Positions 4,632 to 22,938 of a stretch of DNA of 64,000 nucleotides are shown one piece after another. Position 1 is the first letter of the stretch, and each line of letters opens with the position of its first letter. This DNA comes from Micromonospora carbonacea (GTDB lineage: Bacteria > Actinomycetota > Actinomycetes > Mycobacteriales > Micromonosporaceae). The stretch is from assembly GCF_014205165.1 (NCBI RefSeq), contig NZ_JACHMZ010000001.1, positions 4,508,501-4,572,500 of the forward strand, read 5' to 3'. The notes beneath the pieces are model-generated. The model worked only from the letters and a program-made list of their open reading frames with translations, was not told where the DNA came from and ran no database searches. A program made the translations under genes and the position numbers.

Positions 4632-4654
4632 CACCCTTAGCGACCCCCTAGCGG
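4632..4654. promoter_or_regulatory. paired CCCCTAnCGG-like motif upstream of DUF5988-like gene
   Basis: CACCCTTAGCG (4632-4642) and CCCCCTAGCGG (4644-4654) form a direct repeat with a 12-base period, about 190 bases upstream of the start at 4447. The motif recurs in several control regions of the cluster. Operator function is an inference. Confidence 0.4.
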
Positions 4655-4680
4655 GCCGGGTGCCGCGTAGGCCGCTGGTG

Positions 4681-4726
4681 AGAAGGGAACCCGTCTCTAC
4701 CGGAGGCGTTAAGAGGGGGCCCTTCC
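4681..4726. terminator. terminator-like inverted repeat after ABC exporter operon
   Basis: AGAAGGG (4681-4687) pairs with CCCTTCC/T (4720-4726) across a spacer that itself contains G- and C-runs. It lies directly beyond the stop of the ABC permease (4729, minus strand). The arrangement resembles extended hairpin terminators I associate with Micromonosporaceae, which is from memory. The stem is short, so confidence is moderate. Confidence 0.5.
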
Positions 4727-4728
4727 TT

Positions 4729-5466
4729 TCACTCCCAGCGGAAGAAGCGGGTGGCCAGGACACTGCCGACGACGGCGGTGACCGCCAGGGCGAGCAGCTG
4801 CGGCCACGCCGGGCTGTCGCCGGCCCAGGCCGCCGCGAGCGTGTCCACGGTGGCCCCGAGCGGCGAGTAGTCGCCGATGCGGGCCAGCACCGCCGGCATC
4901 TGGTCGCGCGGCAGCCAGGCGCCGGCGAGGAAGAGCAGCGGGAAGAACAGCGCCGGCCCGATCGACTGGGCCGCCCGCGCCGACGGGGCGAGCGCCGCGA
5001 TGAGCAGGCCCACGGCGAAGAGGCAGGCCACGCCGAGCAGGAACGCCAACACGAAGGCGGGCACGTTGGCCGGCGCCGGCTGGTCCAGCAGGAAGCGTAC
5101 GCCGACCGCGGTGACCACCGCGCCGGCCACACCCATCACCAGGTTGACCACCACCTGCGCCACGAGCAGCAGGGCCGGGTTGACCGGGGTGGTGGCCAGG
5201 CGGCGCAGCACCCGCCGCTCCCGGTAGATGCCCAGCGCCATCGGCAGGGTGAACAGGGCGAGCATGCCGATGGTAAGGGCCAGCGCGAGGGCCGGCAGGA
5301 AGGTCAGCTCGCCGTGCTGCCCGGCGTCCCCGCCGGAGGCCCCGCGCTGCGGCAGCCCGAAGACCAGCATGAGGCCGAGCGGCAGGGCGAAGACGAAGAA
5401 CAGCGACACCGGCTCGCGCAGGAACAGCTTCGCCTCGACGGCGATGAGCTTGGACAGGGCGTTCAC
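4729..5466 (-). CDS. ABC-2 type transporter permease
   Basis: A 245-residue integral membrane protein with about six hydrophobic segments. These start with a cytoplasmic amphipathic leader and the segment SLFFVFALPLGLMLVFGL, and end with TAVVGSVLATRFF. The topology and the ERRVLRRL-x-TTPV loop are typical of ABC-2 (DrrB-like) exporter subunits. The GTG start at 5466 overlaps the stop of the upstream ATPase gene by four bases (GTGA), so the two are translationally coupled and form one exporter. A longer reading frame continues upstream but only shadows the ATPase. The cargo may be a drug or lipid-like molecule. Whether this pair serves the polyketide, or the second pair at 21-22.9 kb does, cannot be decided from sequence. 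Confidence 0.87.
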   Translation of the reverse strand: MNALSKLIAVEAKLFLREPVSLFFVFALPLGLMLVFGLPQRGASGGDAGQHGELTFLPALALALTIGMLALFTLPMALGIYRERRVLRRLATTPVNPALLLVAQVVVNLVMGVAGAVVTAVGVRFLLDQPAPANVPAFVLAFLLGVACLFAVGLLIAALAPSARAAQSIGPALFFPLLFLAGAWLPRDQMPAVLARIGDYSPLGATVDTLAAAWAGDSPAWPQLLALAVTAVVGSVLATRFFRWE

Positions 5467-6404: not shown

Positions 6405-6692
6405 GGGCGTGGTCCTCCGTCGCGTGCGGATCGCCGGCCGGCGAGGGCGGGCCCTCGGGGAATCGCGGCGTCTGGGTGCTGGGTGGTGTCGCGGGCTGGG
6501 GATGGGGTGGCGGGGTGCTGGGGACGTGGGTGCGGGGCCACGGTGCGGTCGTGGCCACGGGTCGGACGACGACCGGCGCACGGGCGGTCGACGCCGGATA
6601 TCATCCGGCCAACCGAGGCCCGAATCAACTCATCGGCTGACGGATCGGGGTGCCGACCGGGATCGGGACCGGTCGGCAGGGGTGCCGGGCGG

Positions 6693-7454
6693 TCACCCGG
6701 CGTGTCCGTCGACCCCGCCCGGTCCGACGCCCGGGGCCGCGAGCCCGTCGCCGCCGGTCGCCGGCCGGGCGGCCGGCGACGCGTCGGGGGCGGGGCGCGG
6801 GTCGCAGAGCGGCAGCAGCTCCCCCAGCCCGGCCAGGACGACGTCCGGGCCGGCGGCGAGCAGGGTCGCCGGGTCGGACTCCCCCCACAGCGCCGCGACG
6901 GCGCGGACCCCCGCCGCGCGGGCGCTGGCCAGGTCGCTGGGCGCGTCGCCGACCATCAGCGCGTCGGCGGGCGCGACACCGAGCAGCTCCAGCGCCCGGC
7001 GCACGATGTCCGGCGCCGGCTTCGGGCGGGCCACCTCGTCGGAGCCGACGACGTGGTCGACCAGGCGCAGCAGGTCCAGCCGGCCCAGCAGGTCGCGGGC
7101 ACGCACCCCGCTGCGGCCGGTCGCCACGGCCAGCCCGATCCCGCGCCCGCGCAGCGCGCCGAGCACCCCGGCCGCCCCGTCCACCGGCGTGACGAGGTGG
7201 GCCAGCCGGTTGCTCTCCCGCACGAACGGGTCGGCCATCGCCGCCGGCAGGCCCATCAGCCGCAGCACGTCGGGCAGGTAGCGGCCCGGGTGGCGGCAGT
7301 ATTCGTCGACGGGCGCGACGCCGCCGCCGACCACCTCGGCGTACGCGAGGGCGAACGCCTCGCGGGCCACGGCCAGGCTGTCGGCCAGCACGCCGTCGAG
7401 GTCCAGGACCACCGCCCGGACTCCCCCGGGCCCGCGCTCCGCCGCACCCGCCAC
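6693..7454 (-). CDS. HAD-family phosphatase, RifM-like (AHBA-associated type)
   Basis: A haloacid dehalogenase-fold hydrolase of about 253 residues. The motifs are DLDGVLADS (nucleophile and acid Asp), VATGRSG (motif II), a Lys in RPKPAPDI (motif III) and MVGDAPSDL (motif IV). The segments CRHPGRYLPDVLRLMGLP, FVRESNRLAH and GSDEVARPKPAPDIV resemble the phosphatases of ansamycin clusters (RifM type, linked to 3-amino-5-hydroxybenzoate supply). This likeness is from memory. No AHBA synthase lies in the window, so the true substrate is open. The frame is open to GTG 7490, but GGGGAGG sits 8 bases before GTG 7454, so I prefer 7454. The C-terminus carries a Pro/Ala/Gly-rich tail. The gene is divergent from the MatB gene across a shared control region. 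Confidence 0.78.
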   Translation of the reverse strand: MAGAAERGPGGVRAVVLDLDGVLADSLAVAREAFALAYAEVVGGGVAPVDEYCRHPGRYLPDVLRLMGLPAAMADPFVRESNRLAHLVTPVDGAAGVLGALRGRGIGLAVATGRSGVRARDLLGRLDLLRLVDHVVGSDEVARPKPAPDIVRRALELLGVAPADALMVGDAPSDLASARAAGVRAVAALWGESDPATLLAAGPDVVLAGLGELLPLCDPRPAPDASPAARPATGGDGLAAPGVGPGGVDGHAG

Positions 7455-7500
7455 CGGCGTCACCTCCCCGCACACGCACGCACCCGACACGCCGGCACAG

Positions 7501-7613
7501 GCCGTAGGGGTGGCCCGCCGACGACCGCCCCGGCTAGCGTCGGGTCGCCGGGACCCGCCGGGCCGGGTCCGCCGCGACGGCCCGACCGGCCGGCGTCCCC
7601 GCGAACCCTACCG
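7501..7613. promoter_or_regulatory. divergent control region with CCCCTAnCGG-like motifs
   Basis: Between the HAD gene (minus) and matB (plus). GCCGTAGGGGTGG at 7501-7513 reads as CCACCCCTACGGC on the minus strand, and GAACCCTACCGG at 7602-7613 lies about 20 bases before the matB start. Both resemble the motif seen in other control regions of the window. Binding is inferred, not shown. Confidence 0.4.
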
Positions 7614-7631
7614 GTGGAGAGGTGCGTCCAC

Positions 7632-9041
7632 ATGCCGCTGCTGAGCTGGCTGTCCGAGTCGGCCGACGACCGTCCGGGCGCGGTCCGGGTCGACGACCGG
7701 GCCGTGTCCTGGGTGGAGCTGCGCCGGCTCGCCACGGCGGTCGCCGACGACCTGGGCGGGGTGGACCGGGTGGCCGTCGAGGCGACGCCCACCCTGGAGA
7801 CGGTGGTCGGGGTGGTCGGCGCGCTGCTGGCCGGCGCGGCGGTCGTGCCGGTGCCGCCGGACGCCGGGCCGCTGGAGCGGGACCACATCCTGCGCGACTC
7901 CGGCGCGACGGCGCTGCTCGCCCCGGCCGGCGGCGACCGGCCGGCCGGCGACGGGGGCCCGCCGGTGATCCCCGTCGACCTGGCGCGGCGGTCGGACACC
8001 GTCCACCCCGAGCCGGACCCGGCCGCCACCGCGCTGATCCTCTACACCAGCGGCACGACCGGTGCGCCGAAGGGCGCGGTGATCGGCCGGCGGGCGGTCG
8101 CCGCCTGCCTGGACGGGCTCGCCGACGCCTGGGCGTGGACGCCCGAGGACCTGCTGGTGCACGGGCTGCCGCTGTTCCACGTGCACGGCCTCGTGCTGGG
8201 GGTGCTGGGGCCGCTGCGGCTGGGCAGCCGGCTGCACCACGTGGGCCGGCCGCGCCCCGAGCGGTACGCGGCGGCCGGCGGCACGGTCTACTTCGGCGTA
8301 CCCACGGTGTGGTCCCGGATCGCGGCGGACCCGGACTCGGCGCGGGCGCTGCGCCCGGCGCGGCTGCTCGTCTCGGGCAGCGCGGCCCTGCCGGCGGCGG
8401 TCTTCGCGGACCTGGCCGCGCTCACCGGCCACGAGACCGTCGAGCGGTACGGGATGACCGAGACCCTGATCACGGTGAGCGCGCGGGCGGACGGGCCGCG
8501 CCGGCCGGGGACGGTCGGCGTGCCGCTGCCCGGGGTGCGGACCCGGCTGGCCGACGAGCACGGCGCGGCGCTGCCCGCCGACGGCGAGGCGATGGGCGAG
8601 CTCCAGGTCGCCGGCCCGACCCTCTTCGACGGCTACCTCGGCCGGCCGGACGCCGACGCGGCGACCCGCACCCCGGACGGCTGGTTCCGCACCGGCGACG
8701 TCGCCACGATCGGCCCCGACGGGTGGCACCGGATCGTCGGCCGCGCCGCCACGGATCTGATCAAGAGCGGCGGGTACCGGATCGGGGCCGGCGAGGTGGA
8801 GGACGCCCTGCTGGCCCACCCGGGCGTCCGGGAGGCCGCCGTGGTCGGCACCCCGCACCCGGACCTCGGCCAGCAGGTCACCGCGTACGTGGTGGGCGAC
8901 GGGGTGGACGGCCCGGAGCTGATCGACTTCGTGGCCCGCCAGTTGTCGGCGCACAAGCGGCCCCGCGAGGTGCGGCTGGTCGACGCGCTGCCCCGCAACG
9001 CCCTGGGCAAGGTGCAGAAGACCAGGCTGGCGGCGGACTGA
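7632..9041 (+). CDS. matB: malonyl/methylmalonyl-CoA synthetase (MatB-type)
   Basis: A 469-residue member of the acyl-adenylate-forming family, closely resembling Streptomyces MatB, which converts malonate or methylmalonate plus CoA and ATP into the extender CoA thioester. The P-loop is YTSGTTGAPKG (residues 138-148). PLFHVHGLVLG is at 180-190, RYGMTETL at 272-279, RTGD at 353-356, the hinge ATDLIKSGGYRIGAGE at 373-388, and the catalytic Lys460 in RNALGK. All key residues are intact. GGAGAGG lies about 9 bases before ATG 7632. The gene plausibly feeds the malonyl- and methylmalonyl-specific AT domains of the PKS. It is divergent from the HAD gene and convergent with the PPTase gene. Confidence 0.88.
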   Translation: MPLLSWLSESADDRPGAVRVDDRAVSWVELRRLATAVADDLGGVDRVAVEATPTLETVVGVVGALLAGAAVVPVPPDAGPLERDHILRDSGATALLAPAGGDRPAGDGGPPVIPVDLARRSDTVHPEPDPAATALILYTSGTTGAPKGAVIGRRAVAACLDGLADAWAWTPEDLLVHGLPLFHVHGLVLGVLGPLRLGSRLHHVGRPRPERYAAAGGTVYFGVPTVWSRIAADPDSARALRPARLLVSGSAALPAAVFADLAALTGHETVERYGMTETLITVSARADGPRRPGTVGVPLPGVRTRLADEHGAALPADGEAMGELQVAGPTLFDGYLGRPDADAATRTPDGWFRTGDVATIGPDGWHRIVGRAATDLIKSGGYRIGAGEVEDALLAHPGVREAAVVGTPHPDLGQQVTAYVVGDGVDGPELIDFVARQLSAHKRPREVRLVDALPRNALGKVQKTRLAAD

Positions 9042-9077: not shown

Positions 9078-9740
9078 TCAGCCGGCGGCCGCGGGGATGC
9101 CGATGGCGGTGAGCACCAGGCCCCGCTCGACCAGGAACCGGCCATGGAAGGCGGTCGCCGGGACGCCGCCGAGGACCGGGCCGGGCACCAGCAGGCGCGC
9201 GACGAACGTCCCGCCGGCGTCGACGGCGATGTCCGCCTCGGCGAAGTCCAGCCACCGGCCGGTCAGCGGGAACCACGCCTTGTAGACCGACTCCTTGGCG
9301 CTGAACAGCAGGCGGTCCCAGCAGACCGTGGGGTGGGCGGCGGCCAGCGCGGCGGTGCGGGCCCGCTCGGCCGGCAGCGCGATCGCGTCGAGCACCCCCT
9401 CGGGCAGCGGCGCGTGCGGCTCGGCGTCGACACCGAGGGTGGCCAGCGCCGTGGCCCGGCCGACGACGGCCGCCCGGTAGCCCTCGCAGTGCGTCATGCT
9501 GCCGACCACCCCGGCGGGCCAGACGGGGGCGCCGCGCGCGCCGGAGACGATCGGCGTCTCGGCGATGCCCAGCTCGCCCAGCGCGCGGCGGGCGCAGTGC
9601 CGCACGGTGGTGAACTCCCGGCGGCGCTTGTCGACGGCGTTGGCGACGAGCCGCTCCTCCTCGGGGAACAGGGTCAGGCCGGCGGGGTCGGTGAAGGCCT
9701 CGGCCACCACCGCGGCCGCAGGCAGGATCTGCTCGATCAC
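9078..9740 (-). CDS. 4'-phosphopantetheinyl transferase (Sfp/EntD type)
   Basis: A 220-residue enzyme that transfers phosphopantetheine from CoA to the conserved serine of carrier domains, here presumably the PKS ACPs. Visible signatures are RREFTTVRHCARRAL (residues 40-54), VVGSMTHCEGY (78-88), GVDAEPH (103-109; Asp105 and Glu107 bind Mg2+) and WDRLLFSAKESVYKAWFP (141-158; Glu150 and Lys154). I chose GTG 9740 (VIEQILP) because related proteins begin with this sequence. The open frame continues to 9845, but that part is not family-like and no clear ribosome site supports either start. The gene reads away from a 160-base region shared with the cold-shock gene, which contains a CCCCTATCGG motif 60 bases upstream. 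Confidence 0.87.
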   Translation of the reverse strand: MIEQILPAAAVVAEAFTDPAGLTLFPEEERLVANAVDKRRREFTTVRHCARRALGELGIAETPIVSGARGAPVWPAGVVGSMTHCEGYRAAVVGRATALATLGVDAEPHAPLPEGVLDAIALPAERARTAALAAAHPTVCWDRLLFSAKESVYKAWFPLTGRWLDFAEADIAVDAGGTFVARLLVPGPVLGGVPATAFHGRFLVERGLVLTAIGIPAAAG

Positions 9741-9799: not shown

Positions 9800-9811
9800 C
9801 CGATAGGGGTG
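9800..9811. promoter_or_regulatory. CCCCTATCGG motif upstream of PPTase gene
   Basis: CCGATAGGGGTG on the plus strand, i.e. CACCCCTATCGG on the strand of the PPTase gene, about 60 bases before its start. It matches the motif ahead of the ABC exporter at 22.92 kb (CCCCCTATCGG). Regulator binding is inferred. Confidence 0.4.
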
Positions 9812-9909
9812 GGTACGGGTGGAGGGCGGCGGGGGCGGATGTCACCCTGAGGGGTGCCCCGGCCCGGTTGGCCGGGGGTGTGTAGTGGTCTTTGGTCTGA
9901 GGAATGCGG

Positions 9910-10368
9910 GTGGCGATGCTGACTGGCAGGGTGGTCCGGTTCGACGAGGTGCGGGGTTACGGCTTCATCGCTCCGGACGGCGGCGGGGACGACGTGTTCG
10001 TGCACGCCAACACGGTCGACGGCGACAAGTGGGCGCTGGGGCCCGGCGTCCCGGTGGAATACGAGGCGGTGGAGAACGAGCGCGGCCCGAAGGCGCTGAC
10101 GGTGCGCGTGCTCGGGCCCGCCGTGGCCGGCGAGCGCGCCGCGCCGCTGCGGACGGTCGCGCCGTCGACGGGGCGCGGCCACGAGTCGGGCGAGGGCGGG
10201 ATCGAGGACGAGGAGGGGCTCTGCGACGTGCTCTCCGAGCGGTCCTTCGTCACCGAGACCACCGAGGCGCTGCTGGTCTCCGTGCCGGACCTGACCGGGG
10301 CGCAGATCGTGGCGGTGCGCGCCCGGATGCTGGCGCTGGCGCGGCGGCACGGCTGGGTCGAGGGCTGA
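9910..10368 (+). CDS. cold-shock-domain protein with C-terminal extension
   Basis: A protein of about 152 residues. The N-terminal 70 residues form a cold-shock (OB) domain with RNP1-like YGFIAPDGGGDDVFVH, a nucleic-acid-binding surface. Residues after about 70 form an acidic extension without known motifs. This arrangement is common in actinomycete proteins that begin TGKVVRFDEFRGYGF. Start choice is uncertain: ATG 9904 is directly adjacent to GAGGA (no spacing), GTG 9910 has GAGGA six bases upstream, and ATG 9916 is also possible. I chose 9910 for the spacing. It is probably an RNA chaperone or transcription antitermination factor in the cytoplasm. A link to polyketide synthesis is only positional. 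Confidence 0.78.
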   Translation: MAMLTGRVVRFDEVRGYGFIAPDGGGDDVFVHANTVDGDKWALGPGVPVEYEAVENERGPKALTVRVLGPAVAGERAAPLRTVAPSTGRGHESGEGGIEDEEGLCDVLSERSFVTETTEALLVSVPDLTGAQIVAVRARMLALARRHGWVEG

Positions 10369-10400
10369 CGCCGCCGCCCGTGCCGTAGGGGCGTCGCGGG

Positions 10401-11804: not shown

Positions 11805-13315
11805 CCGCCCTAACCTCTGTCGAGGGCGCCGACGAGGCTCGGCGGTGGCAGGGACATCGCGGCCACAGAACCCTTCGCGTCATGGGTGCGGGTAGCCCCA
11901 TATCCGGCCATCCCCGCGTGCTGCGGGTGCCCCGAAATTAGGCTGCGCCTATCGCCCGGCACAACCCCTAGCCGTGGCGCGCGACGCCCACCGCGACCCG
12001 GGTTCCGCCGCACCGGCGGGCAGGCGGGCCAGGCAGGACCCGCGCCGGGGCGGGGCCGGACGCCTCGGGCGGGGCGCGGCTATTCCGCGAGCCGGCGGGC
12101 GGTCGCCGGGCCGCCGGGGCCCGGGCGGAATTGGAATTGCGGCACGGACCGTGCGGATTGGGCGACCCCGCCGAAACAGCATCCCTATACATCGATGCCG
12201 ACCACGCTTTTTGATTCGGGCCCGATTCACTTCAGCCACTGCCGGGCCCACGCTCCGCCGCCGGCCGGTCGCGTGGAGCCCACCTTTAACGGCAAAGACC
12301 TCCTTTGTTTTTGAAGCGTCCCGAATCGGGCAAGAACGCGTCGATGCCATCGAAGGGGACGCGGCCTTCCCAGGACCCCGCCGAACCGCCGACCGGCTCC
12401 ACCCTGGACGGACGCCCCGCCCCGGCCCGAAATGCCGGGGCCATCGATCCCCGCCGCTCGCGCGCGGCCGGCCGGCGAGCCGGCCACCGTCCGCCGGCAC
12501 CACCGGGCCCTCACGCAGCGAGATCCTCCCGCCCTGCGGGACGCCGCCGGACAGCCGGCTCCGGGCCGCCGGGCGCGGCGGCCCGCCCGCCGCCGACGTC
12601 CCCACCCCGGGGCACCCGCCAGGGCGTGAACTGCCCGTTCCGCCCCGGAACCGCAGCGTCACGAAGCCGGCCGTCGAGAGGGGCGGGGCGGCCGGACGCC
12701 GACGCCGGACGCCCGCCCGGCCAGCACGCAGCGCCACCACCACCGGGACCGGACGCGGGGCGACGCCCGCCACAGGGCGGGAACCGCCGATTCCCCGCGT
12801 AGCGTCGCGGGGAGCGCTCCCTCCCGGTCAACGGGGGTGGCACAACGCTTTCCACCCAATTGTCGGCAAGCCCCGAAAACGGCATCAACCGACCAGAGAA
12901 AGGCTCACGTATCACTTTGTGAATTCACCCGGCGACCGTCCGCTGTCAGTTCCACCGACGTGGCCTGCGGCGGCGGAAGGCACCAAACCGATGTTTGCCT
13001 ATCCTTTACAACCTTCGGCTTGCCGCCCAATTGCCGGACTGCCATACTCCCACCATGCACGGCGGTCGATAGCGGGGGGATGCGTCCGGACGGGCCCTAG
13101 AATTGTCGAAGGTGCTGGTAGTGCCCTGGTCCGGGAGCATCAGCCAGTCAAGCTAATCGATGGCCCGCCGCGAACGCGTGACGGCCGTCTATATTCGCCA
13201 ATACGGGAATGGGTCGAAAATTGCCGGTCTCCGATTTCGTCAGGCTCGATGGCAGACCAGGGAAGGTGGCGGGCCCCGTGACGACTGGCCTCGCGCGCCC
13301 TCCGAGGCCACGCCC
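11805..13315. other. 1.5-kb non-coding region between divergent genes
   Basis: No convincing coding sequence: open frames here have no family-like sequence and no good ribosome site. GC content drops around 12170-12330 and 12840-13260, as in promoter DNA. Visible structure includes CGCCTATCGCC (11946-11956) and AACCCCTAGCCG (11963-11974), both like the cluster motif. There is a dyad GCACGGACCGTGC (12142-12154), a palindrome TCGGGCCCGA (12216-12225) and CCCGAATCGGG (12320-12330). Four copies of AATTGYCGR occur at 12858, 13029, 13101 and 13219. It presumably holds the promoters of the degenerate MatB gene (minus) and the first LAL regulator (plus). No tRNA or other RNA gene is recognisable. Confidence 0.6.
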
Positions 13316-16156
13316 ATGGAGTTGAGCGAACGGTCCCACCAGCTCGACCTCCTGGCCCGCCGGCTCGGCGACCTGCGCCGACCCGCCGGTCAGGCCGTCG
13401 ACGCCCGGCCGGTGATCGCGCTGACCGGCCCCGTCGGCGCCGGCAAGACCACCCTCCTCCAGGCCCTCGCCCGGCGGGCCACCGACGCCGGCGTCCGCTT
13501 CCTGGGGGCGAGCGCCTCGCGGGCCGAGCGCGCGGTCCCGCTGGAGGTCGTCCGCCAACTCGTCCGGGCCACGCCGCCGGACGACGCCCGCGCCCGCCTC
13601 GAACGGCTGCTCGACCAGGGCGTCCTCACCTGGTCCGACCTCGACGACGGCCAGGAGGGGCCGGCCCGGACCATCGCGGCGATCGGCGGCGCCCTGCTGG
13701 AGCTGGCCGCCCGGGGCCCCCTGGTGATCGGGATCGACGACGTCCACCACGCCGACGTGCCGTCGCTGCGCTGCCTGGACTACGTGGCCCGACGCATCCC
13801 CGGCCTGCCCGTGCTGATCGTGCTGACCGAGGCCCCCCGGACCCGCCCCTGGCACCCCGAGGTCTATGCCGAGCTGCTGCAACCGGCCCGGCTGCACCGG
13901 ATCCGGGTCCCCCTGCTCACCCTGGACGGCACGCACCGGGCCCTGGCCGACCGGCTCGGCGCGCCGACGGCGCGGAGCATCGCCGAGGAGACGCACCGGA
14001 TCAGCGGCGGCAACCCCCTGCTGGTGCAGGCGCTCGCCGACGACCACCTGGCCGCCGTGCCGCGCGGCGCCGCCCGGCCCGAGTCGGGCGAGGCGTTCCG
14101 GGAGGCCGTGCTGAGCTGCCTCTACCGCTGCGAGCACCTGGTGCTCAAGGCAGCCCGGGCGCTCGCGGTGACCGACGAGCCGCTGCACGGCGCGCTGCTC
14201 CCGCAGCTCGTCGACGTGCGCGCGGAGTCCGCCCTGCTCGCGATCGACGAGGCCACCAGCGCCGGCCTGATCACCGAGGGCGGGCTGCGGCACCCCGCCG
14301 TCGGCCGGGCCGTGCTCGACGGCACGACCGCCGAGGAACGCGCCCGGCTGCACCGGCTGGCCGCCTGCCTCCTGCACGAGGACGGCGAGTCGCCGGTCCT
14401 GGTCGCCCGGCACCTGCTGCGTACCGACTCGCTGGCCGAGCCCTGGATGGCCCGGACCCTGCTCGACGCCGGCGAGCAGGCCCTGCTCGACGGCGAGGTG
14501 GACGCGGCCCTGCGGTTCCTGCGCCGCGCCCACCGGGACGGCACCGACGAGTGCCTGCGGGCGCGCGCCCGCTCCGCCCTCGCCCGCGCCGAATGGCGGC
14601 TCGACCCGCAGGGCGCGATGCCCCACCTACAGGGGGTGGCCAGCGCCGTCCGGGCCGGGCACCTGGGCAGCACGCAGGCCGCCGGGCCGATCCAGTACCT
14701 GCTCTGGCACGGCCAGATCGACAAGGCCGTCGAGCTGGTCCGGCACCTGGGCGACCGCGCCGACAGCAGCGACCCGCGCTCCGCGGCCGAGCTGCTGGTC
14801 ACCAAGGGCTGGATGGCCACCCTCTACCCCGGGGTGACGATCGACCACCAGGCCCCCGTCCCGGCCCGGCGCGACCCGCTGACCATCGCGAAGGTGAAGC
14901 AGCGGCTCCAGGGCGTGACCATGCTGGCCTCCGTGCTGGAGCGGGGCGACGGCGGCGCCGTCGAGGAGGCCGAGCGGGTGCTGTCCACCATCGGGCTGGA
15001 CGACGAGCGGGACATGTGGACCGCCATCTGCGCCCTGATCACCATGATCTACGCCGACCGGCTGGACCTCGCCGGCGAATGGTGCGGCCGGCTGGGCCGC
15101 AGCGCCACCGTCAGCCGGCATCCCACCCCGGCGGCGATGCTGGCCGCCCTCGACGCGGCGATCGCCGGCCGGCGCGGCGACCTGACCCGGGCGCAGGAAC
15201 TGGCCGACACCGCGCTGAACCAGCTCTCCCCGAAGGGCTGGGGCGTGGTGATCGGGATACCGCTCGCCATCCGGCTGCGGGCCCTGACGTTCCTGGGTGA
15301 GCTCGACGCGGCGGCGGCCTGCCTCCAGGTGCCCGTGCCCCAGGTGCTCTTCGAGACCCCGTTCGGGCTGCACTACCTGCACGCCCGGGGGCTGCACGCG
15401 CTGGCCACGGGCAGCCCGGAGAGCGCCCTGGCCGACTTCCAGCTCTGCGGGCAGCTCATGGCGGCCTGGCGGCTGGACCTTCCGGCGCTCATCCCGTGGC
15501 GCACCGAGTCGGCCCGGGCCCTGCTGCAACTCGGCCGCCGGCCGCAGGCCGAGAAGCTGGTCCGGGAGGAGCTGGGGCGGTTGCGGCCCGGTCACGTGCG
15601 CTACCGGGCCGCGGCGCTACGGGTGCTCGCGGCGGCGGAGGACGGCCGGGACCCGATCCCGCACCTGCGCGGCTCCGTGCGGCTGCTGCGCCAGTGCGGC
15701 GACCGGATGGAACTCGCACACAGCCTCACCGACCTGGGCCACGCCTACCAGCAGGCGGGCGACCTGCGGCAGGCCCGCAAGGCGACCCGGGCCGCCCGGA
15801 CGCTGGCCCAGGAGTGCGGCCTCCCGCTGCTGCGGCCGGCCGCCGCCCCGGGCCGCGGCGGACCGGCCGGGGCAGATCCCGACGTCGCGGTGCTGGTGGA
15901 GGGGCTCAGCGACACCGAGTCGCGGGTGGCCACCCTGGCCGCGCAGGGCCACACCAACCGGGAGATCGCCGAGAAGCTCTTCCTGACGGTCAGCGCGATC
16001 GAGCAGCGGCTGACCCGCATCTACCGCAAGCTCGACGTCGACTCGCGCCGGCAGTTGGCCGTGCGGTTGCGGCTCGACCGGCCCGGCGCGATGCCGGCGG
16101 AACGCCTGGGCGCGCCCCGCAAGCCCCCCGGCCGCGACGGCGACGCCCGGCGCTGA
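13316..16156 (+). CDS. LAL-family (large LuxR) transcriptional regulator 1
   Basis: A 946-residue regulator of the LAL type (large ATP-binding LuxR). Walker A is GPVGAGKT (residues 38-45) and Walker B is VIGIDDVHHAD (near 142). There is a long central region of helical repeats with TPR-like character. The C-terminal LuxR helix-turn-helix (about 864-920) contains LAAQGHTNREIAEKLFLTVSAIEQRLTRIYRKLDV. Such proteins are usually pathway-specific activators of macrolide and polyene clusters. The frame is open from 13160, but I chose ATG 13316: GAGG lies 8 bases upstream and Walker A then falls at the normal distance from the N-terminus. A second LAL gene of nearly equal size follows in the same direction. 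Confidence 0.88.
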   Translation: MELSERSHQLDLLARRLGDLRRPAGQAVDARPVIALTGPVGAGKTTLLQALARRATDAGVRFLGASASRAERAVPLEVVRQLVRATPPDDARARLERLLDQGVLTWSDLDDGQEGPARTIAAIGGALLELAARGPLVIGIDDVHHADVPSLRCLDYVARRIPGLPVLIVLTEAPRTRPWHPEVYAELLQPARLHRIRVPLLTLDGTHRALADRLGAPTARSIAEETHRISGGNPLLVQALADDHLAAVPRGAARPESGEAFREAVLSCLYRCEHLVLKAARALAVTDEPLHGALLPQLVDVRAESALLAIDEATSAGLITEGGLRHPAVGRAVLDGTTAEERARLHRLAACLLHEDGESPVLVARHLLRTDSLAEPWMARTLLDAGEQALLDGEVDAALRFLRRAHRDGTDECLRARARSALARAEWRLDPQGAMPHLQGVASAVRAGHLGSTQAAGPIQYLLWHGQIDKAVELVRHLGDRADSSDPRSAAELLVTKGWMATLYPGVTIDHQAPVPARRDPLTIAKVKQRLQGVTMLASVLERGDGGAVEEAERVLSTIGLDDERDMWTAICALITMIYADRLDLAGEWCGRLGRSATVSRHPTPAAMLAALDAAIAGRRGDLTRAQELADTALNQLSPKGWGVVIGIPLAIRLRALTFLGELDAAAACLQVPVPQVLFETPFGLHYLHARGLHALATGSPESALADFQLCGQLMAAWRLDLPALIPWRTESARALLQLGRRPQAEKLVREELGRLRPGHVRYRAAALRVLAAAEDGRDPIPHLRGSVRLLRQCGDRMELAHSLTDLGHAYQQAGDLRQARKATRAARTLAQECGLPLLRPAAAPGRGGPAGADPDVAVLVEGLSDTESRVATLAAQGHTNREIAEKLFLTVSAIEQRLTRIYRKLDVDSRRQLAVRLRLDRPGAMPAERLGAPRKPPGRDGDARR

Positions 16157-16331: not shown

Positions 16332-16367
16332 CCCCCCTTACGGCGTCGCTGGCAACCCCTAACGGCC
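16332..16367. promoter_or_regulatory. direct repeat of CCCCTAACGGC-type motif upstream of LAL 2
   Basis: CCCCCCTTACGGC (16332-16344) and AACCCCTAACGGCC (16354-16367) form a direct repeat with a 22-base period, two helical turns. They lie in the 500-base non-coding gap (16157-16653) between the two LAL genes, about 290 bases before the second start. No coding sequence is seen in that gap. A LAL dimer site, possibly autoregulatory, is an inference. Confidence 0.45.
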
Positions 16368-16653
16368 ACCCGGGACCGCAGGTTTACGCGCGAAACGATG
16401 GGGTCTCGCTCCCGTTGTCGCACAACCGGCCCGGTGCCAGACTCGCCTGGACATCCGGATCGCTCGCTGGGGAGCGCGGTCCGGCCAGGGACAGTTCAAG
16501 ATCCACCCGGCATGGCGGCCCGGTGCGCTCCACCCCTACCCGGGCAACGGGTGGGTGTGGTGGAGGGGCGGCTGTCCGGCTTGGGGGGGGCGGTGTCCGA
16601 TCAGCGCCGGTGGTCCCGGCCCGGCACCGCGGACGAGAAGGGCTGGCTTACGA

Positions 16654-19488
16654 GTGGTGCTGGTGCAGCGGGAGGAACAACTGGATCGGCTCCGCAGGGC
16701 GTTCGACGCCTGCGCGGAACACCAACGCGGACACGTCGCGCTCGTGACGGGCGCGGTGGGCAGCGGCAAGACGAGTCTGTTGGAGACGTTCAGCGAGTGG
16801 GCCGGGGCCGCCGGGGGGCGGGTGCTCGGCGCGGCCGGGTCGCGAGCCGAACGCGGACTCCACCTGGGGGTCCTGGGGCAGCTGCTCCACAGTGCCCGGC
16901 TCGACCAGGAGGCGGCGGCCCGGATCGAGAACCTGATGCGGGACGCCGCCTTCGCCGGGCCCCTGCCGGAGCCCGGCGGGGACGCGGCCGACGGGGCGGC
17001 CGCCGGCGACCGGGTCTGGGCGCCCCTGTTGCACGGCCTGTTCACGGCGCTGCTCGACCTCGCCGACGCCGGGCCGCTGGTCCTCGCCGTCGACGACGTG
17101 CACCACGCCGACCCGGCGTCGCTGCACTGCCTGCTCTACGTCACCCGGCGGCTGCGGCACGCCCGGATCATGGTGGTGCTCACCGAGGCGTCGACGCTGC
17201 GCCCGCCGCACCCGCTGTTCCGCGCCGAGCTGCTCAGCCAGCCGTACTTCTCGCGGATCAGCCTGCCGCCGCTGACCGTCGACGGGATCGCCCGGCTGGT
17301 CGACGCCGACGGCGGGGCTGCCGCCGTCCGGGAGGCGGCCGAACGCTGCCTGAGCATGACCGGCGGCAACCCGCTGCTCACCCGCGCCCTCATCGACGAG
17401 CGGGCCCCCGGCGGCGCGGGCGACGAGCGCGGCGCGGACCCGACCGGCGGCGACCCGTTCGACCAGGCCGTCCTCGGCTGCCTCTACCGGCACGAGCCGG
17501 GGGTGCGGCGCGTCGCGCAGGCCCTCGCCGTGCTGAACCGCCCCGTGCCGACCGAACTGCTCGGCCACGTCCTCGATGTGGTGCCCGAGTCGGCCGCCCC
17601 GGCGGTGCGGGTGCTGCGCACCGCCGGGCTGATGGAGGCCGACCAGCTTCGGCACCCGCGCATCCTGCGGTCCATCCTCACCGACATGTCGCCCGAGGAG
17701 CGCCGCGGCCTGCACCAGCGGGTCGCCGAGGTGCTGCACGAGCACGGCGCGGAGCCGGGCGCGGTGGCCGAGCACCTGGTCGCCGCCGCGTGGGCCGACG
17801 CCCCCTGGGTGGTGCCCGTGCTCTCCGACGCCGCCGCGCAGGCCCTGGCGTCGGGCCGGCCCGACGTGGCGGCGGCGTGCCTGCGCCTGGTCGCCCGCGC
17901 CGACGTCGACGAGCGGCAGCGCACCGCTGCCACCGCCATGCTGGTCAACGCCCGGTGGCAGGTCAACCCGCTCGCCGCCAACGGGCACCTCAGCGAGCTG
18001 GTGGAGTCGGCGCGGGCGGCCGGCTGGTCCACCGGGGCCGCCCTGGCCACCGTGCCGTTCCTGCTCTGGCAGGGGCGGGTGGAGGAGGCCACCGAGGCCG
18101 TCAGCGGCTTCTCCGCCGACGACGACCACGGCCCCGCCGGCCGGCTGCGGGCCATGCAGCTCCTGGTCTCCCTCTCCCACCCCGACCAGCTCGCCTCCGT
18201 CCGCGAGACGCCGAGCACGTGGAGCCGGGCGGCGACCGCGCCGACGTCGGTCAGCCCCCAGTTGCAGGCGGTCACGGTGCTCGGCACGGCGCTGCTGCCG
18301 AACGCCGACACCGACACCGTGGCCACCGCCGAGCAGCTGCTGCAACGGCACCACACCGACGACGGCGCGGTGGGGCTGCTCACCGCCCCGCTGCTCGCGC
18401 TGCTCTGGTCGGGCCGCTGCGACCGGGTCGTGGCCTGGGCGGACATCCTGCTCAACCGGCCCGCGGTCCGGCACGCCCCGGTGTGGCGGGCCGTCGTGCG
18501 GGCGGTGCGCGCCGAGGCCGCGCTGCGGCTGGGCGACCTGCCGGGCGCGGAGCACCACGCCCGCGCGGCGCTGGAGGACATCCCCGCCCCGGCCTGGGGG
18601 GTGGCCATCGCCGGGCCGCTGGCCACGCTGATCGCCTGCGCGACCGAGGCGGGCCGGTTCACCGAGGCCGACCGCTGGCTGGCCCACCCCGTCCCGGCCG
18701 GCATGTTCCGCACCCCGCTGGGCGTGCACTACCTGGCCGCCCGGGGCCGGCACCACCTGGCCATGGGGCGGCCGCACGCGGCGACCGCCGACCTGCGCCG
18801 CTGCGGTGAGCTGATGCGCGGGTGGGGCATCGACGTGGCCGGGCTGGTGCCGTGGCGGCTGGAGCTGGCCCGGGTGCAGCTCAGCGTCGGCAACAAGACC
18901 CACGCCACCCAGCTGTTGCAGGAGCAGCTGCGCGTCGCGCACGGGGTCGACGACCGGACCCGGGGCCGGTCGCTGCGGCTGCTCGCCACCACCGCCGCCC
19001 AGGACCACCGGCGCAAGCTGCTCGGCGAGGCCGTCAACCTGCTCCAGGGCTGCGGCGACCGGCTGGAGCTGGTGCGGGCCCTCGGCGACACCGGCCAGAG
19101 CCTGCAACGGGCCGGCGACTCGGCGCGCGCCCGGCTGCTGGTGCGCCGCGCCTACCAGCTGGCCCAGGACTGTGGCGCGTCCGTGCTGGCCCAGCGGCTG
19201 ATCCGGCGGGACGCGGGCGGCGCGCTGCCCGCGTACCCGGCCGGGGCGGAGGCGCACGAGCCGGACGACGGGCTCAGCGAGGCCGAGCGCCGGGTCGCCG
19301 CGCTGGCCGCCCAGGGGCACACCAACCGGCAGATCTCCAGCAAGCTGTTCATCACCGTCAGCACGGTGGAGCAGCACCTCACCCGGGTCTACCGGAAGCT
19401 GGACGTCAAGCGGCGCACCGACCTGCCGGCCCGGCTCGTCGCCTACGCGGAGCCGCTGGTCGAGGAGCCCCAGGGCGCGGCGTCCTGA
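16654..19488 (+). CDS. LAL-family (large LuxR) transcriptional regulator 2
   Basis: A 944-residue protein of the same architecture as its upstream neighbour. Walker A is GAVGSGKT (residues 33-40) and Walker B is LVLAVDDVHHAD. A long helical middle follows, then a C-terminal LuxR helix-turn-helix (LAAQGHTNRQISSKLFITVSTVEQHLTRVYRKLDV). The start is chosen at GTG 16654; GTG 16657 and GTG 16663 are also possible, and the upstream GAGAAGG is somewhat distant. The open frame reaches back to 16555 without family-like sequence. The two LALs are clear paralogues, but their helix-turn-helix recognition parts differ. The gene ends in a strong terminator and is convergent with the glycosyltransferase operon. 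Confidence 0.88.
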   Translation: MVLVQREEQLDRLRRAFDACAEHQRGHVALVTGAVGSGKTSLLETFSEWAGAAGGRVLGAAGSRAERGLHLGVLGQLLHSARLDQEAAARIENLMRDAAFAGPLPEPGGDAADGAAAGDRVWAPLLHGLFTALLDLADAGPLVLAVDDVHHADPASLHCLLYVTRRLRHARIMVVLTEASTLRPPHPLFRAELLSQPYFSRISLPPLTVDGIARLVDADGGAAAVREAAERCLSMTGGNPLLTRALIDERAPGGAGDERGADPTGGDPFDQAVLGCLYRHEPGVRRVAQALAVLNRPVPTELLGHVLDVVPESAAPAVRVLRTAGLMEADQLRHPRILRSILTDMSPEERRGLHQRVAEVLHEHGAEPGAVAEHLVAAAWADAPWVVPVLSDAAAQALASGRPDVAAACLRLVARADVDERQRTAATAMLVNARWQVNPLAANGHLSELVESARAAGWSTGAALATVPFLLWQGRVEEATEAVSGFSADDDHGPAGRLRAMQLLVSLSHPDQLASVRETPSTWSRAATAPTSVSPQLQAVTVLGTALLPNADTDTVATAEQLLQRHHTDDGAVGLLTAPLLALLWSGRCDRVVAWADILLNRPAVRHAPVWRAVVRAVRAEAALRLGDLPGAEHHARAALEDIPAPAWGVAIAGPLATLIACATEAGRFTEADRWLAHPVPAGMFRTPLGVHYLAARGRHHLAMGRPHAATADLRRCGELMRGWGIDVAGLVPWRLELARVQLSVGNKTHATQLLQEQLRVAHGVDDRTRGRSLRLLATTAAQDHRRKLLGEAVNLLQGCGDRLELVRALGDTGQSLQRAGDSARARLLVRRAYQLAQDCGASVLAQRLIRRDAGGALPAYPAGAEAHEPDDGLSEAERRVAALAAQGHTNRQISSKLFITVSTVEQHLTRVYRKLDVKRRTDLPARLVAYAEPLVEEPQGAAS

Positions 19489-19499
19489 CCGACGACGCA

Positions 19500-19535
19500 G
19501 GGGCCGGCGCGGTGGGTGACCACCGCGCCGGCCCC
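19500..19535. terminator. strong bidirectional intrinsic terminator
   Basis: A perfect 16-bp stem, GGGGCCGGCGCGGTGG (19500-19515), loop GTGA and CCACCGCGCCGGCCCC (19520-19535), followed by TTCTC. It lies between the LAL 2 stop (19488) and the convergent glycosyltransferase stop (19559), and would serve both strands. Confidence 0.85.
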
Positions 19536-19558
19536 TTCTCGCGTACGGAGGAAGCGGC

Positions 19559-20986
19559 TCAGCCGGCGACGGGCGCGACGGCGCGACGGGCCGCCACCGC
19601 CTCGTCGCGGTGGCGCAGCACCAGCTCGGCGGCGGCGGTGACCCCGCCGGCCTGGCGCAGCCGCCGGCTCCACAGCGCCGCCCGGTCCCGGAAGGCCCGC
19701 TCGGTCAGCAGCCGGCGCAGCTTCGCCACGATGTCGTCGACGTCGAGGGCGTCGTCGTGCTCGACGGCCAGGGCGACGCCCGCGTCGACGACCCGGACCG
19801 CGCCGTCGTGGCAGTCGAACCAGAACGGCAGCACGAGCTGCGGCACGCCGAACCAGGCCGCCTCGTGGATCGCGTTGGCGGCGGCGTGGTTGAAGAAGAC
19901 CCGCACGTGCGGGTGGGCCAGCACCTCCACCTGCGACGGCAGCCACGACTCGACGCGCAGGTTCGCCGGCAGCTCGCCGGCCGGCGGCAGGTGCCGCTGC
20001 CGGTCGGCGGGGAGCTTCCACAGCACGTGGTGCTCGGGGCCGAGCCGGGCGGCGACGTCGACGAGCGCGGCCACCTGGGCGGCGGTGGGGCGCATGATGG
20101 TGCCGAACCCGACGTAGACCACCGACTCGTGGGCGTCGAGCCAGGCGCGCAGCTCCGCGCCGTCGGGGCTCGGCACGATCTCGGTGGGCACCATCGAGCC
20201 GACCGTGCGCAGCGTCGCGGGCGCGGTGGCGAAGGGATACTCCAGGCCGAAGACCGTGTACGCCAGCAGCGCCCGCGCCGCCTGCGCGTACAGCGCGGGC
20301 CGCAGCTCCACGTTGGGGATCCCGGCGGCCCGGCGGCGCTCGGCGGCGGCGGTGTTACGGGCCAGCCGCTGCGGCTCCATCAGGGTCTTCAGCAGCGCCT
20401 CGCGGTGGCGGCCGTTGGCGGCCTGCTGGCTCGGGCTCATGTGCAGCGGCAGCCCCGACAGCGGCACCGGGTACGTCGGCGGCAGGCTGTCCTGGAGGAA
20501 GTTCGACGGCGGCACCGACACGCTGATCACGAACGGCACGCCCCGGACGGTCATCGCGTCCATCCCGAACGAGGCGAACGAGTCGACCACCGCCAGCGCC
20601 GGGGCCACCTCGTCGACCAGGGTCAGGCAGCGCTCGTACAGCTCGTGCAGGTAGTCGTAGTCGACGGAGGTGTCGACGTACGTCGCGAAGTTCTCCACCC
20701 GGCTGCCGGCGGACATCCGCCGGTGGGTCTCGTCGTCCCAGTGCTCGGGGCGCACCGCCAGGCGGGCCGGCCCCAGCGACAGGAAACGCAGCTCCCCGCC
20801 GCCGGGCAGGCCCTCGACGTCGGCCCGCCGCTCGTCGGTGCAGGCGAAGAACACCCGGCGCGTCCCCCGCCGCTTCAGCTCGCCGGCCAGGGTGAGCAGC
20901 GGGTTGAACAGCCCGGAGCTGCCCGAGGTGACGATCAGCAGCGGGCCCTCGTCGGCCGTCGCCGCGCCGGCCGCCTGAGTCGTCAT
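19559..20986 (-). CDS. GT1-family macrolide/MGT-type glycosyltransferase
   Basis: A 475-residue GT-B fold enzyme of family 1 (UDP-glycosyltransferase and macrolide glycosyltransferase type). The N-terminal acceptor domain begins with LLIVTSGSSGLFNPLLTLA. The C-terminal donor domain shows VVYVGFGTIMRP, VESWLPSQVEVLAHPHV and FFNHAAANAIHEAAWFGVP; the last is the region where HCG-x-x-S is common, with His present. It probably transfers a nucleotide-activated sugar to a hydroxyl of the polyketide. No deoxysugar biosynthesis genes lie in the window. ATG 20986 lies 13 bases after the ABC permease stop, so the gene is the third in an operon ATPase-permease-glycosyltransferase. A self-resistance role by glycosylation is an alternative. 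Confidence 0.86.
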   Translation of the reverse strand: MTTQAAGAATADEGPLLIVTSGSSGLFNPLLTLAGELKRRGTRRVFFACTDERRADVEGLPGGGELRFLSLGPARLAVRPEHWDDETHRRMSAGSRVENFATYVDTSVDYDYLHELYERCLTLVDEVAPALAVVDSFASFGMDAMTVRGVPFVISVSVPPSNFLQDSLPPTYPVPLSGLPLHMSPSQQAANGRHREALLKTLMEPQRLARNTAAAERRRAAGIPNVELRPALYAQAARALLAYTVFGLEYPFATAPATLRTVGSMVPTEIVPSPDGAELRAWLDAHESVVYVGFGTIMRPTAAQVAALVDVAARLGPEHHVLWKLPADRQRHLPPAGELPANLRVESWLPSQVEVLAHPHVRVFFNHAAANAIHEAAWFGVPQLVLPFWFDCHDGAVRVVDAGVALAVEHDDALDVDDIVAKLRRLLTERAFRDRAALWSRRLRQAGGVTAAAELVLRHRDEAVAARRAVAPVAG

Positions 20987-21005
20987 CGCGCCGGCCGCCT
21001 CAGTC
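20964..21005. repeat. 18-bp near-identical direct repeat around glycosyltransferase start
   Basis: GCGCCGGCCGCCTGAGTC (20964-20981) and GCGCCGGCCGCCTCAGTC (20988-21005) match at 17 of 18 positions with a 24-base offset. One copy spans the permease stop and the intergenic gap, the other encodes the N-terminus of the glycosyltransferase. Confidence 0.7.
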
Positions 21006-21833
21006 CATCGCCCGGCGCATGAAGCCGCGGATGCCGACGGCGCTGAACAGCACGAACACCCCGGCCAGCACGATCAGGTCCAGCCACAGCGGCACCGACT
21101 GCACCCCGGGCGGGGCGACCAGCGACCGGGTGGCCTCGCTGACGTAGGTGAGCGGGTTGAGCGCGCAGATCACCTGGAACCAGGGGAGCTGGTCCAGGGC
21201 GCGCAGCGGGAACTGGGTCGCGCCGGTGAACATCAGCGGGGTCATGGTCACGGTGAACATGATCTGGATGCGGTGCGGCGGGACGAGCGTGCCGAACGTC
21301 AGCCCCATGGCCGCGCCGACCATCGCCCCGGCGGTGAGCACCCCGAGCACCGGCAGCAGGGTCGACAGCGGCCAGCTCACGCCGAGCATCAGCATGCCGA
21401 TGGGGATCAGCACCACCCCGGCGATGACCCCCCGGATCGCCCCGAAGACGATCTTCTCGAACGCGACGAGCGGGATCGCCATCGGCGACAGCAGCCGGTC
21501 CTCGATCTCGCGGGTGAAGGAGAAGTCCATCACCATCGGCAGGGCGGTGTTCTCCAGGCCGATGAGGAACGCGTTGAGCGCGATGACGCCGGGCAGCAGC
21601 ACGTTGGCGAAGTCGTTGCTGGCGTAGCCGAGGCTGGTGAGGACCTTGCCGAAGATCAGCAGCATGAACAGCGGCTGGAGGAACACCTGGGCGAAGAACG
21701 CGCCCAGCTCCCGGCTGGTGACGAACATGTCGCGCCAGAGCACCGCCCGGAAGGTGGCGAGCTGGTCCAGCCCGCGCACCGGCGCGGCCGGCGCCACGGC
21801 GGTCGACGGGGTGGCGGGTGCGGTGACGCTCAC
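21000..21833 (-). CDS. ABC-2 type transporter permease of cluster exporter
   Basis: A 277-residue membrane protein with about six transmembrane segments. These include FLQPLFMLLIFGKVL, VLLPGVIALNAFLIGLEN, GVIAGVVLIPIGMLMLGV and LIVLAGVFVLFSAVGI. The central ABC-2 loop contains SFTREIEDRLLSPM, typical of DrrB-like permeases that export antibiotics. The GTG start at 21833 overlaps the ATPase stop by four bases (GTGA), giving translational coupling. Located between the ATPase and the glycosyltransferase and directly after the last PKS gene, it is the best candidate for the product exporter and for self-resistance. The frame is open much further upstream, but that is the shadow of the ATPase gene. 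Confidence 0.88.
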   Translation of the reverse strand: MSVTAPATPSTAVAPAAPVRGLDQLATFRAVLWRDMFVTSRELGAFFAQVFLQPLFMLLIFGKVLTSLGYASNDFANVLLPGVIALNAFLIGLENTALPMVMDFSFTREIEDRLLSPMAIPLVAFEKIVFGAIRGVIAGVVLIPIGMLMLGVSWPLSTLLPVLGVLTAGAMVGAAMGLTFGTLVPPHRIQIMFTVTMTPLMFTGATQFPLRALDQLPWFQVICALNPLTYVSEATRSLVAPPGVQSVPLWLDLIVLAGVFVLFSAVGIRGFMRRAMD

Positions 21834-22867
21834 CGAAGTTCCCTTCCGGTCAGGTGGATGAAGACGTCTTCGAGGCTCGGCTGGCCGATGCTGAGGTCGC
21901 GGACCTCGCACCGCAGGTCGGTGAGGATCTTCAGCGCCATCGGCACGGCGTTGGCCGGCGCGGTGCCGGTGTAGAGCCGGAACGACAGCGTGGCGTCCGG
22001 GTCGGCGGGGGCGTCCGGCACCGGCATCGGCGGCATCCCGGGGAACATCGGCATCCCGCCGGGCGGGCCGCCGGCGCGCAGCCGCTCGACGCGCTCCACG
22101 TCGGCGACGTTGCCCAGCGCCGCCTGCACGTCCTCGGCGGGGGCGCCGGCCGACACCACCAGGGTCAGCGTGCTGCTGCCCGGCAGGGTGCGGGTGAGCG
22201 CCGCCGGGGTGTCCAGGGTGAGCAGCTTGCCGTGGTCGACGATGCCGACGCGGTCGCAGAGCTTCTCCGCCTCGTCCATGTCGTGGGTGGTCACCACGAC
22301 GGTGACGCCGGCCTGCTTCAGCTCGGCGATCCGGTCGTGCACGAACAGCCGCGACTGCGGGTCGAGGCCGCCGGAGGGCTCGTCGAGGAACAGCACCTTC
22401 GGCGCGTGCATCAGCGCCCGCGCGATCATCGTGCGCTGCGCCAGGCCGCCGGAGAGGAAGTCCGTGCGGGCGTTGGCGAAGTCCTTCAGGCCCATCTGCT
22501 CCAGCAGCTCGTCGGCCCGCTTCGTGCGCACCGACCGGGACACCCGGTGGTAGGCCGAGTGGAACAGCAGGTTCTGCCGGACGGTCAGCGCCCGGTCCAG
22601 GTTCACCCGCTGGGGAACCACCGCCAGCAACCGCCGGGCCGCGGCCGGCGAGCGGACGACGTCCGCCCCGCACACGACCGCGCGTCCCGAGGTGGCCCGC
22701 ACCCGGGTCGTCAGCACCCCGATCGTCGTGGTCTTGCCCGCGCCGTTCGGCCCGAGCAGACCGAAGACCTCACCGGCGGCGACGGAGAAGCTCAGTCCGT
22801 CCACCGCCGGCGGCATGTTGGGCTGGTACCGCTTGACCAGCTCCTCGACCACCACTGCCTCGTCCAC
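21830..22867 (-). CDS. ABC exporter ATP-binding protein (DrrA-like)
   Basis: A 345-residue nucleotide-binding subunit. Walker A is GPNGAGKT (residues 39-46), the signature is LSGGLAQR (138-145), Walker B is VLFLDEPSGGLDP and the H-loop is TTHDMDEAEKLCDR. An unusual Met/Pro/Gly-rich segment, GGPPGGMPMFPGMPPMPVPD, occupies about residues 267-285 of the C-terminal domain and is absent from the other exporter ATPase in this window. The GTG start at 22867 has GGGAG 9 bases upstream. It follows the last PKS gene in the same direction after 84 bases that include paired CCCCTA-type motifs, so it may have its own promoter. It powers the adjacent permease, probably for macrolide efflux. Confidence 0.88.
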   Translation of the reverse strand: MDEAVVVEELVKRYQPNMPPAVDGLSFSVAAGEVFGLLGPNGAGKTTTIGVLTTRVRATSGRAVVCGADVVRSPAAARRLLAVVPQRVNLDRALTVRQNLLFHSAYHRVSRSVRTKRADELLEQMGLKDFANARTDFLSGGLAQRTMIARALMHAPKVLFLDEPSGGLDPQSRLFVHDRIAELKQAGVTVVVTTHDMDEAEKLCDRVGIVDHGKLLTLDTPAALTRTLPGSSTLTLVVSAGAPAEDVQAALGNVADVERVERLRAGGPPGGMPMFPGMPPMPVPDAPADPDATLSFRLYTGTAPANAVPMALKILTDLRCEVRDLSIGQPSLEDVFIHLTGRELR

Positions 22868-22915
22868 GTCGCCATGCTCCCGTCCTGGTCCCGGCTGGGA
22901 CAGTCGTCAATCGCT

Positions 22916-22938
22916 CCGATAGGGGGTGCTAGGGGCAG
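22916..22938. promoter_or_regulatory. paired CCCCTA-type motif ahead of exporter operon
   Basis: CCGATAGGGGG (22916-22926) and GCTAGGGGC (22928-22936), with a 10-base period. On the gene strand they read CCCCTAGC then CCCCCTATCGG. They lie in the 84-base gap between the last PKS gene and the exporter ATPase. Operator function is inferred from recurrence elsewhere in the window. Confidence 0.45.

Follow-up and report, generated by a model that had tools for sequence, protein, structure and literature searches.

Phased TAGGGG repeats as a putative operator of LAL regulators in a quinolidomicin-type cluster of Micromonospora carbonacea

The genome of Micromonospora carbonacea (GCF_014205165.1; 7.53 Mb) carries, within a 64-kb stretch of contig NZ_JACHMZ010000001.1 (positions 4,508,501-4,572,500, hereafter the window), two genes for regulators of the LAL type (large ATP-binding regulators of the LuxR family), LAL1 and LAL2, and a short motif, TAGGGG or its complement CCCCTA, recurs in the intergenic DNA around them. 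Do these repeats form the operator of the two proteins, and over what distance would the genes under their control extend? Our results suggest, with a probability that we put at about 0.8 on sequence evidence, that TAGGGG repeats (about GNTAGGGGTKG) are the putative operator of the cluster's LAL regulators, LAL2 and probably LAL1, which would act as activators. The core is enriched, conserved, helically phased, set at a fixed distance from -10 boxes and associated with LAL genes; binding, activation, the direction of control, ATP dependence and the choice of the acting LAL are what we infer from these patterns. Coordinates written with "+" follow the numbering of the window, also past its end.

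Enrichment and conservation of the core

The initial annotation had proposed CCCCTAnCGG as a LAL operator and had held that an equal density of this motif in random intergenic DNA would speak against the idea. The control consisted of 60 stretches spaced over this genome (1.2 Mb of its 7.5 Mb; 213 kb intergenic, 951 kb coding), where intergenic lengths are approximate because gene borders came from a simple codon-usage caller. Between 4.0 and 105.2 kb, the core CCCCTA occurs 13 times in 5.0 kb of intergenic DNA (2.61/kb), against 31 times in 213 kb of the control (0.15/kb; 32 in 232.6 kb, or 0.14/kb, where the stretch ends were left untrimmed), so that the local density, intergenic against intergenic, is about 18-fold higher and the idea withstood this comparison. 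Coding DNA holds 2 copies in 96.2 kb (0.021/kb) in the same interval and 61 in 951 kb (0.064/kb) in the control. In a ranking of hexamers by enrichment, the core is first (of 1313) in 4.0-105.2 kb and fourth (of 1631) in 4.0-222 kb; it is absent from the best 14 for 23-222 kb, a list headed by hexamers from a CRISPR-type array.

What stands out is only the local crowding, since the genome total is not high: the strict CCCCTAnCGG has 40 matches genome-wide, 6 of them in the window (Poisson P about 7e-7), against 162 for the same pattern read backwards. Likewise, the genome holds 8 same-strand pairs of the form CCCCTA-N3-18-CCCCTA (12 for the backward control), 5 of which fall within 195 kb (genome positions 4531420-4726856). 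Allowing one mismatch in CCCCTAnCGG gave a definition that we abandoned, with 35 matches in the window against 27.5 +/- 5.2 in shuffled sequence and 35 reached in 10 of 100 shuffles. This lack of enrichment, the greater abundance of backward-read controls genome-wide and the rarity of CCCCTA in coding DNA everywhere would all suit chance or composition, that is, a C-rich hexamer common in non-coding DNA; such an account is nevertheless contradicted by the local intergenic density and by the conservation of position, phasing and -10 distance, and we consider its likelihood negligible.

Each place named in the initial annotation does carry the motif or a near-copy. The core was correctly recognized, but the "nCGG" tail is soft and over-specified, as the full CCGNTAGGGG matches only 6 of 20 own sites. 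Strict matches among these places are confined to 4645, 9800, 16356 and 22916, and the remaining ones in the window (2390 and 44112) are both coding; near-copies are CCCCTACGG at 7501 and 10382, ACCCTACCGG at 7605 and CGCCTATCG at 11946. Outside TAGGGG, conservation is strongest for a G two bases upstream of it (15/20 sites), and a T follows in 12/20. This 20-site consensus comprises the 22 own sites minus 105085, probably coding (upstream ATG, by reading), and 10386, which lacks conservation; both were kept in the density tally of 13 intergenic copies and in the 22-site tally of -10 distances.

Of 150 further Micromonospora genomes, 24 have a LAL1 homologue (66-93% identity), the closest named one being that of M. 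haikouensis (93%). The homologue in M. okii TP-A0468 is 77% identical, and this strain is reported to have a quinolidomicin-type cluster in the passages available of two papers (PMC8698034, PMC9054317). In 20 of the 24 regions (20 kb each; counts out of 21 include our own), 155 core matches lie in 72.9 kb of intergenic DNA (2.13/kb) and 20 in 327 kb of coding DNA, and the core tops a ranking of 2004 hexamers by enrichment over the own-genome control (155 seen, 11 expected). It recurs at the same promoters across these regions, although not at every promoter in every genome. From this promoter comparison two rows were set aside, our own one for PPTase, which represented the 10386 site, and one of the DUF5988 group that is probably a different site. 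The earlier doubt about the copy at 10382, between convergent genes, was well placed, because no such copy was seen there in the 20 orthologous regions.

Sites in the window, helical phasing and distance to the -10 box

The sites and the two regulator genes are as follows.

4605..4650, minus strand: putative operator facing the DUF5988 gene (4142-4447); TAGGGG 4645-4650, TAAGGG 4634-4639, 23 nt, -10 box TACGTT 4605-4610
7505..7540, plus strand: putative operator facing the acyl-CoA synthetase gene 7632-9041 (second ligase); TAGGGG 7505-7510, 24 nt, TAGCGT 7535-7540
7605..7614, plus strand: weak copy ACCCTACCGG, without the full core
9804..9809, minus strand: CCCCTA toward the phosphopantetheinyl transferase (PPTase, by Pfam) gene 9078-9740, in reverse orientation
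10386..10391, minus strand: CCCCTA between convergent genes, probably no operator; unseen there in 20 orthologous regions
11935..11970, minus strand: putative operator facing the acyl-CoA ligase gene 10401-11804 (by Pfam); TAGGGG 11965-11970, 24 nt, -10 box TAATTT 11935-11940
13316..16156, plus strand: LAL1, 946 aa, AAA_16 and C-terminal GerE (LuxR) helix-turn-helix (HTH)
16334..16384, plus strand: CCCCTTACGG and CCCCTAACGG, 22-bp step, upstream of LAL2, in reverse orientation; CAGGTT 16379-16384 (17 nt)
16533..16538, plus strand: third copy upstream of LAL2, in hairpin-like sequence (by eye only)
16654..19488, plus strand: LAL2, 944 aa, AAA_16 and GerE HTH, usual LAL recognition helix
22920..22935, minus strand: two CCCCTA 10 bp apart toward ABC transporter/glycosyltransferase genes 19559-22867, in reverse orientation

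Core copies recur at steps of 10-12 or about 20-22 bp. The direct repeats had been noticed before, with spacings given as 10, 12 and 22; measured start to start, the steps in the window are 11 (4634/4645), 19 (11946/11965), 22 (16334/16356) and 10 (22920/22930). The arrangement is kept among relatives: the tandem step at DUF5988 is 11 in 17/21 regions and 10 in 2/21, with TAAGGG-N23/24-TANNNT in 19/21; TAGGGG-N23/24-TAATTT precedes the ligase gene in 21/21, and TAGGGG at N23/24 the second ligase in 16/21. The last of these sites also lies upstream of a divergent HAD phosphatase gene (6693-7412), which scores above the cut-off of TIGR01454 (3-amino-5-hydroxybenzoate (AHBA) synthesis associated protein). 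At the reverse-oriented sites, the 10-bp CCCCTA pair before the ABC transporter genes (ABC2) is present in 20/20 orthologous regions, CAGGTT or TAGGTT follows the LAL2 sites at N17 in 18/21, the third LAL2-upstream pattern is found in 15/21, own included, and a TAGCAT-like box lies 48-50 nt downstream of the PPTase site in 11/21.

A fixed arrangement is also seen upstream of the gene that we call AHBA synthase (inferred from its DegT family and context; no NCBIfam name above cut-off), which lies past the window end and is present, at 88-100% identity, in 25/25 LAL1-bearing genomes, own included; a search of 17 other genomes found one in two (72-73%). In 25/25 AHBA promoters the proximal TAGGGG stands exactly 24 nt before a TANNNT -10 box, and 2-4 full copies lie within 400 bp, at steps of 10 (32 steps) or 11 (2), with one gap of 62. 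TAGGGG is missing from the 1.5 kb upstream of five AHBA-synthase paralogues (71-73%), one of which carries CCCCTA at -42. Over all own-cluster intergenic sites, 8/22 have a -10 box at N23-24, against 0/32 control sites. Given a TANNNT frequency of 0.0019 per control intergenic position, the binomial value, assuming independent sites, is about 1e-14.

Two further observations belong to this neighbourhood. A cold-shock domain gene with a C-terminal extension (9904-10368) lies between the PPTase and ligase genes; many orthologous regions, though not every one, have a gene called there. Upstream of LAL1, about 1.3 kb (11971-13315) has no called gene, and a possible promoter, TTGCCG-N17-CATACT near 13022-13050 (by eye), keeps its form in several orthologues.

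LAL genes, a possible mechanism and its rivals

LAL regulators are described as proteins of about 870-1160 aa with an N-terminal ATP-binding domain and a C-terminal LuxR HTH, in the part of the source consulted (PMC6022917), and LAL1 and LAL2, each of which scores above the cut-off for AAA_16 and for GerE, conform to this description. They are about 40% identical; other matches to LAL1 in the genome have E values of 3e-9 or worse. Does the motif follow such genes elsewhere? We collected 20 regions around LALs of 37-45% identity, grouped them by shared 20-mers into 12 other families and counted one region per family. The core occurs 45 times in 71.3 kb of intergenic DNA (0.63/kb), also at 10-12 and 20 bp steps, which exceeds both our control (0.14/kb; Fisher P 5e-11) and eight SARP-gene stretches (1 match in 10.7 kb, 0.09/kb; Fisher P 0.013). 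These families are the fairer test of the -10 distance, because that distance was first noticed in our own cluster, and here 9/45 sites have the box at N23-25 (binomial value about 4e-12 if sites are independent), in 6 families, with 4/9 in one. At nine LAL loci of Streptomyces and Sinosporangium, 4/12 intergenic TAGGGG have a -10 box at 22-26 nt, against 0/32 in the control. The core is thus denser near LAL genes than in the controls, weakly in several families, and the LAL-operator reading of the initial annotation gains support, the enrichment being stronger beside the LAL1-LAL2 pair than beside the 12 other families.

If so, TAGGGG copies in tandem would lie on one face of the helix, at steps of 10-12 bp and sometimes about two turns, and the proximal copy, 23-24 nt upstream of the -10 box at many promoters, would occupy about -42 to -37, if the -10 box spans -12 to -7. 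Along the phased repeats an oligomer of LAL protein could assemble, its last unit beside the -35 position, and recruit RNA polymerase in the manner of MalT. In E. coli, MalT is thought to form an oligomer along repeats and to recruit polymerase, and its boxes, GGGGA(T/G)GAGG, are G-rich direct repeats at maltose genes with a proximal box near -35. The likeness thus concerns a LAL-type protein, G-rich direct repeats and the position of the proximal box; the consensus and the target genes differ. The LALs would turn on the supply of acyl-CoA, the synthesis of the AHBA starter and the polyketide synthase (PKS) operons together, and a cascade or self-amplification is possible because LAL2 has sites upstream.

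Several observations weigh against this reading. Fourteen of the 22 own sites lack a -10 box at 23-24 nt, some of them being distal tandem copies, and the distance rule is broken by the sites in reverse orientation (LAL2, ABC2, PPTase) and by the one at +212078, ahead of the first PKS gene. The region upstream of LAL1 has no full core in our genome, 6/12 other LAL families have only 0-2 core matches, and 4/9 of the Streptomyces/Sinosporangium loci have no intergenic TAGGGG. The 155 orthologue matches are not independent, since the regions are related, and the background for counts in other genomes is our own-genome control. In the passages available, moreover, the putative site of FkbN consists of two 7-nt inverted repeats, PimM-like and unlike our motif, although a PPTase gene is among the putative FkbN targets, as here (PMC6022917).

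Should both LALs be involved? LAL2 has the helix TVSTVEQHLTRVYRKL, nearly constant among the LALs compared, and that of LAL1, TVSAIEQRLTRIYRKL, is a close variant with EQRL where LAL2 has EQHL. LAL2 also has upstream sites, and LAL1 lacks a full core here, though in 5/20 orthologous regions a full core lies about 245 bp before the gene. It is therefore a serious, if less favoured, option that only one LAL, most likely LAL2, binds the repeats, and that the pair forms a cascade in which LAL1 works upstream or through different sites; the two helices nonetheless resemble each other closely, and both genes stay together in the orthologous regions that were read. A different regulator could instead bind the repeats, for example the XRE-type protein encoded inside the cluster (+113493 to 114653), beside the CCCCTA site at +115363, and the association with LAL genes would then be a coincidence. 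This family is rich in paralogues, so that a distant one could serve. We find this improbable, because the distribution of the gene is too patchy to explain the sites: the protein is at least 76% identical in 4/25 quinolidomicin-type genomes and at most 66% in the other 21, whereas the AHBA operator is present in 25/25, and the motif also accompanies other LAL families.

One cluster of more than 200 kb and its relation to known systems

As to extent, the places first listed were real and span 18 kb, but the site-bearing stretch covers about 214 kb. At its end the window cuts into a PKS operon whose start is at +103772. Just upstream of that start, CCCCTA occurs three times, at steps of 11 and 12 bp; further intergenic sites are found at +115363, +172509, +173590/173610, +193282, +193306, +212078 and +218340/218351. 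The right-hand part includes a PKS whose domains begin with AMP-binding, a weak ketoreductase (KR) and PP-binding, followed by the first ketoacyl-synthase, which corresponds to CoA ligase (CoL)(/KR)/acyl carrier protein (ACP) loading, and genes of the AHBA type lie there as well (DegT-family aminotransferase, oxidoreductase, phosphatase, 3-dehydroquinate synthase, type II dehydroquinase and ROK protein), so that starter genes are linked over about 200 kb, as expected of the quinolidomicin type. LAL1 and AHBA synthase are 187-213 kb apart in 16/16 genomes with both on one contig (in 9/25 they are on different contigs). We had considered two neighbouring clusters under cross-control; this was dropped because of that linkage and because the literature, as far as its passages go, describes one quinolidomicin cluster. 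The sites fit a single quinolidomicin-type macrolide cluster of more than 200 kb.

In the parts consulted, the quinolidomicin (qnm) cluster is described as larger than 200 kb and widespread in Micromonospora, with type I PKS, CoL(/KR)/ACP loading and an amino-quinone product (PMC8698034, PMC9054317). These traits agree with our locus, which is likened to the type by its loading domains and AHBA linkage; the published order comprises 33-34 PKS modules. Our genome differs in a transketolase/glycosyltransferase cassette and a CRISPR-type array. The cassette (+105142 to 113403) comprises a split transketolase, a glycosyltransferase, an MFS transporter, a HAD hydrolase and an aldo/keto reductase; for its first transketolase half, 23/24 other quinolidomicin-type genomes give no match at E 1e-60, and the single match lies elsewhere on the contig concerned. 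The array (+115874 to 117670) lies inside the polyketide cluster, with a repeat near GGATCACCCCCGCGTGCGCGGGGAACAG and a period of 61 bp. Beyond the cluster, a palindrome, CCCCTAGGGG, occupies +241851 to 241860 between divergent rhodanese-domain genes.

Among known LAL sites, the patent literature on FK506/rapamycin-type LALs reportedly gives CTAGGGGGTTGC as a binding site, and a Streptomyces iranensis LAL locus contains TAGGGGGTTGC. The reported site shares TAGGGG followed by TTG with our sites at 11965, 16356 and +103952; it has one G more than most of our copies, and it is not known to follow a phasing or -10 rule. The PimM/PAS-LuxR operator, CTVGGGAWWTCCCBAG (PMC6448028, in the portion consulted), has a half-site, CTVGGG, that resembles CTAGGG, and belongs to a LuxR-type HTH, but it is a 16-nt dyad with GGGA, whereas our cluster has direct repeats with GGGG; GGGA-WW-TCCC follows TAG in 0/22 own sites, all of which are TAGGGG by construction of the list. 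RifZ was dropped as a published match, as the passages on it gave no site sequence, and no matching LAL operator appeared in the passages found on lasalocid, SCO0877/SCO7173, FK506 and regulatory cascades, nor in the literature passages searched overall. The wider operator grammar may be new.

Whether actinobacterial LAL activators share one grammar, with phased TAGGGG repeats of which the proximal one is set 23-25 nt away from a TANNNT -10 box, is in our judgement an even bet. LAL genes are common in large, often silent polyketide clusters, and for a 200-kb cluster the core, its phasing and its -10 distance together make a checkable rule for the regulon, which would indicate the promoters to watch upon overexpression of a LAL gene. 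If the grammar is indeed shared, the regulon and the borders of silent LAL-controlled clusters would be readable from sequence alone.

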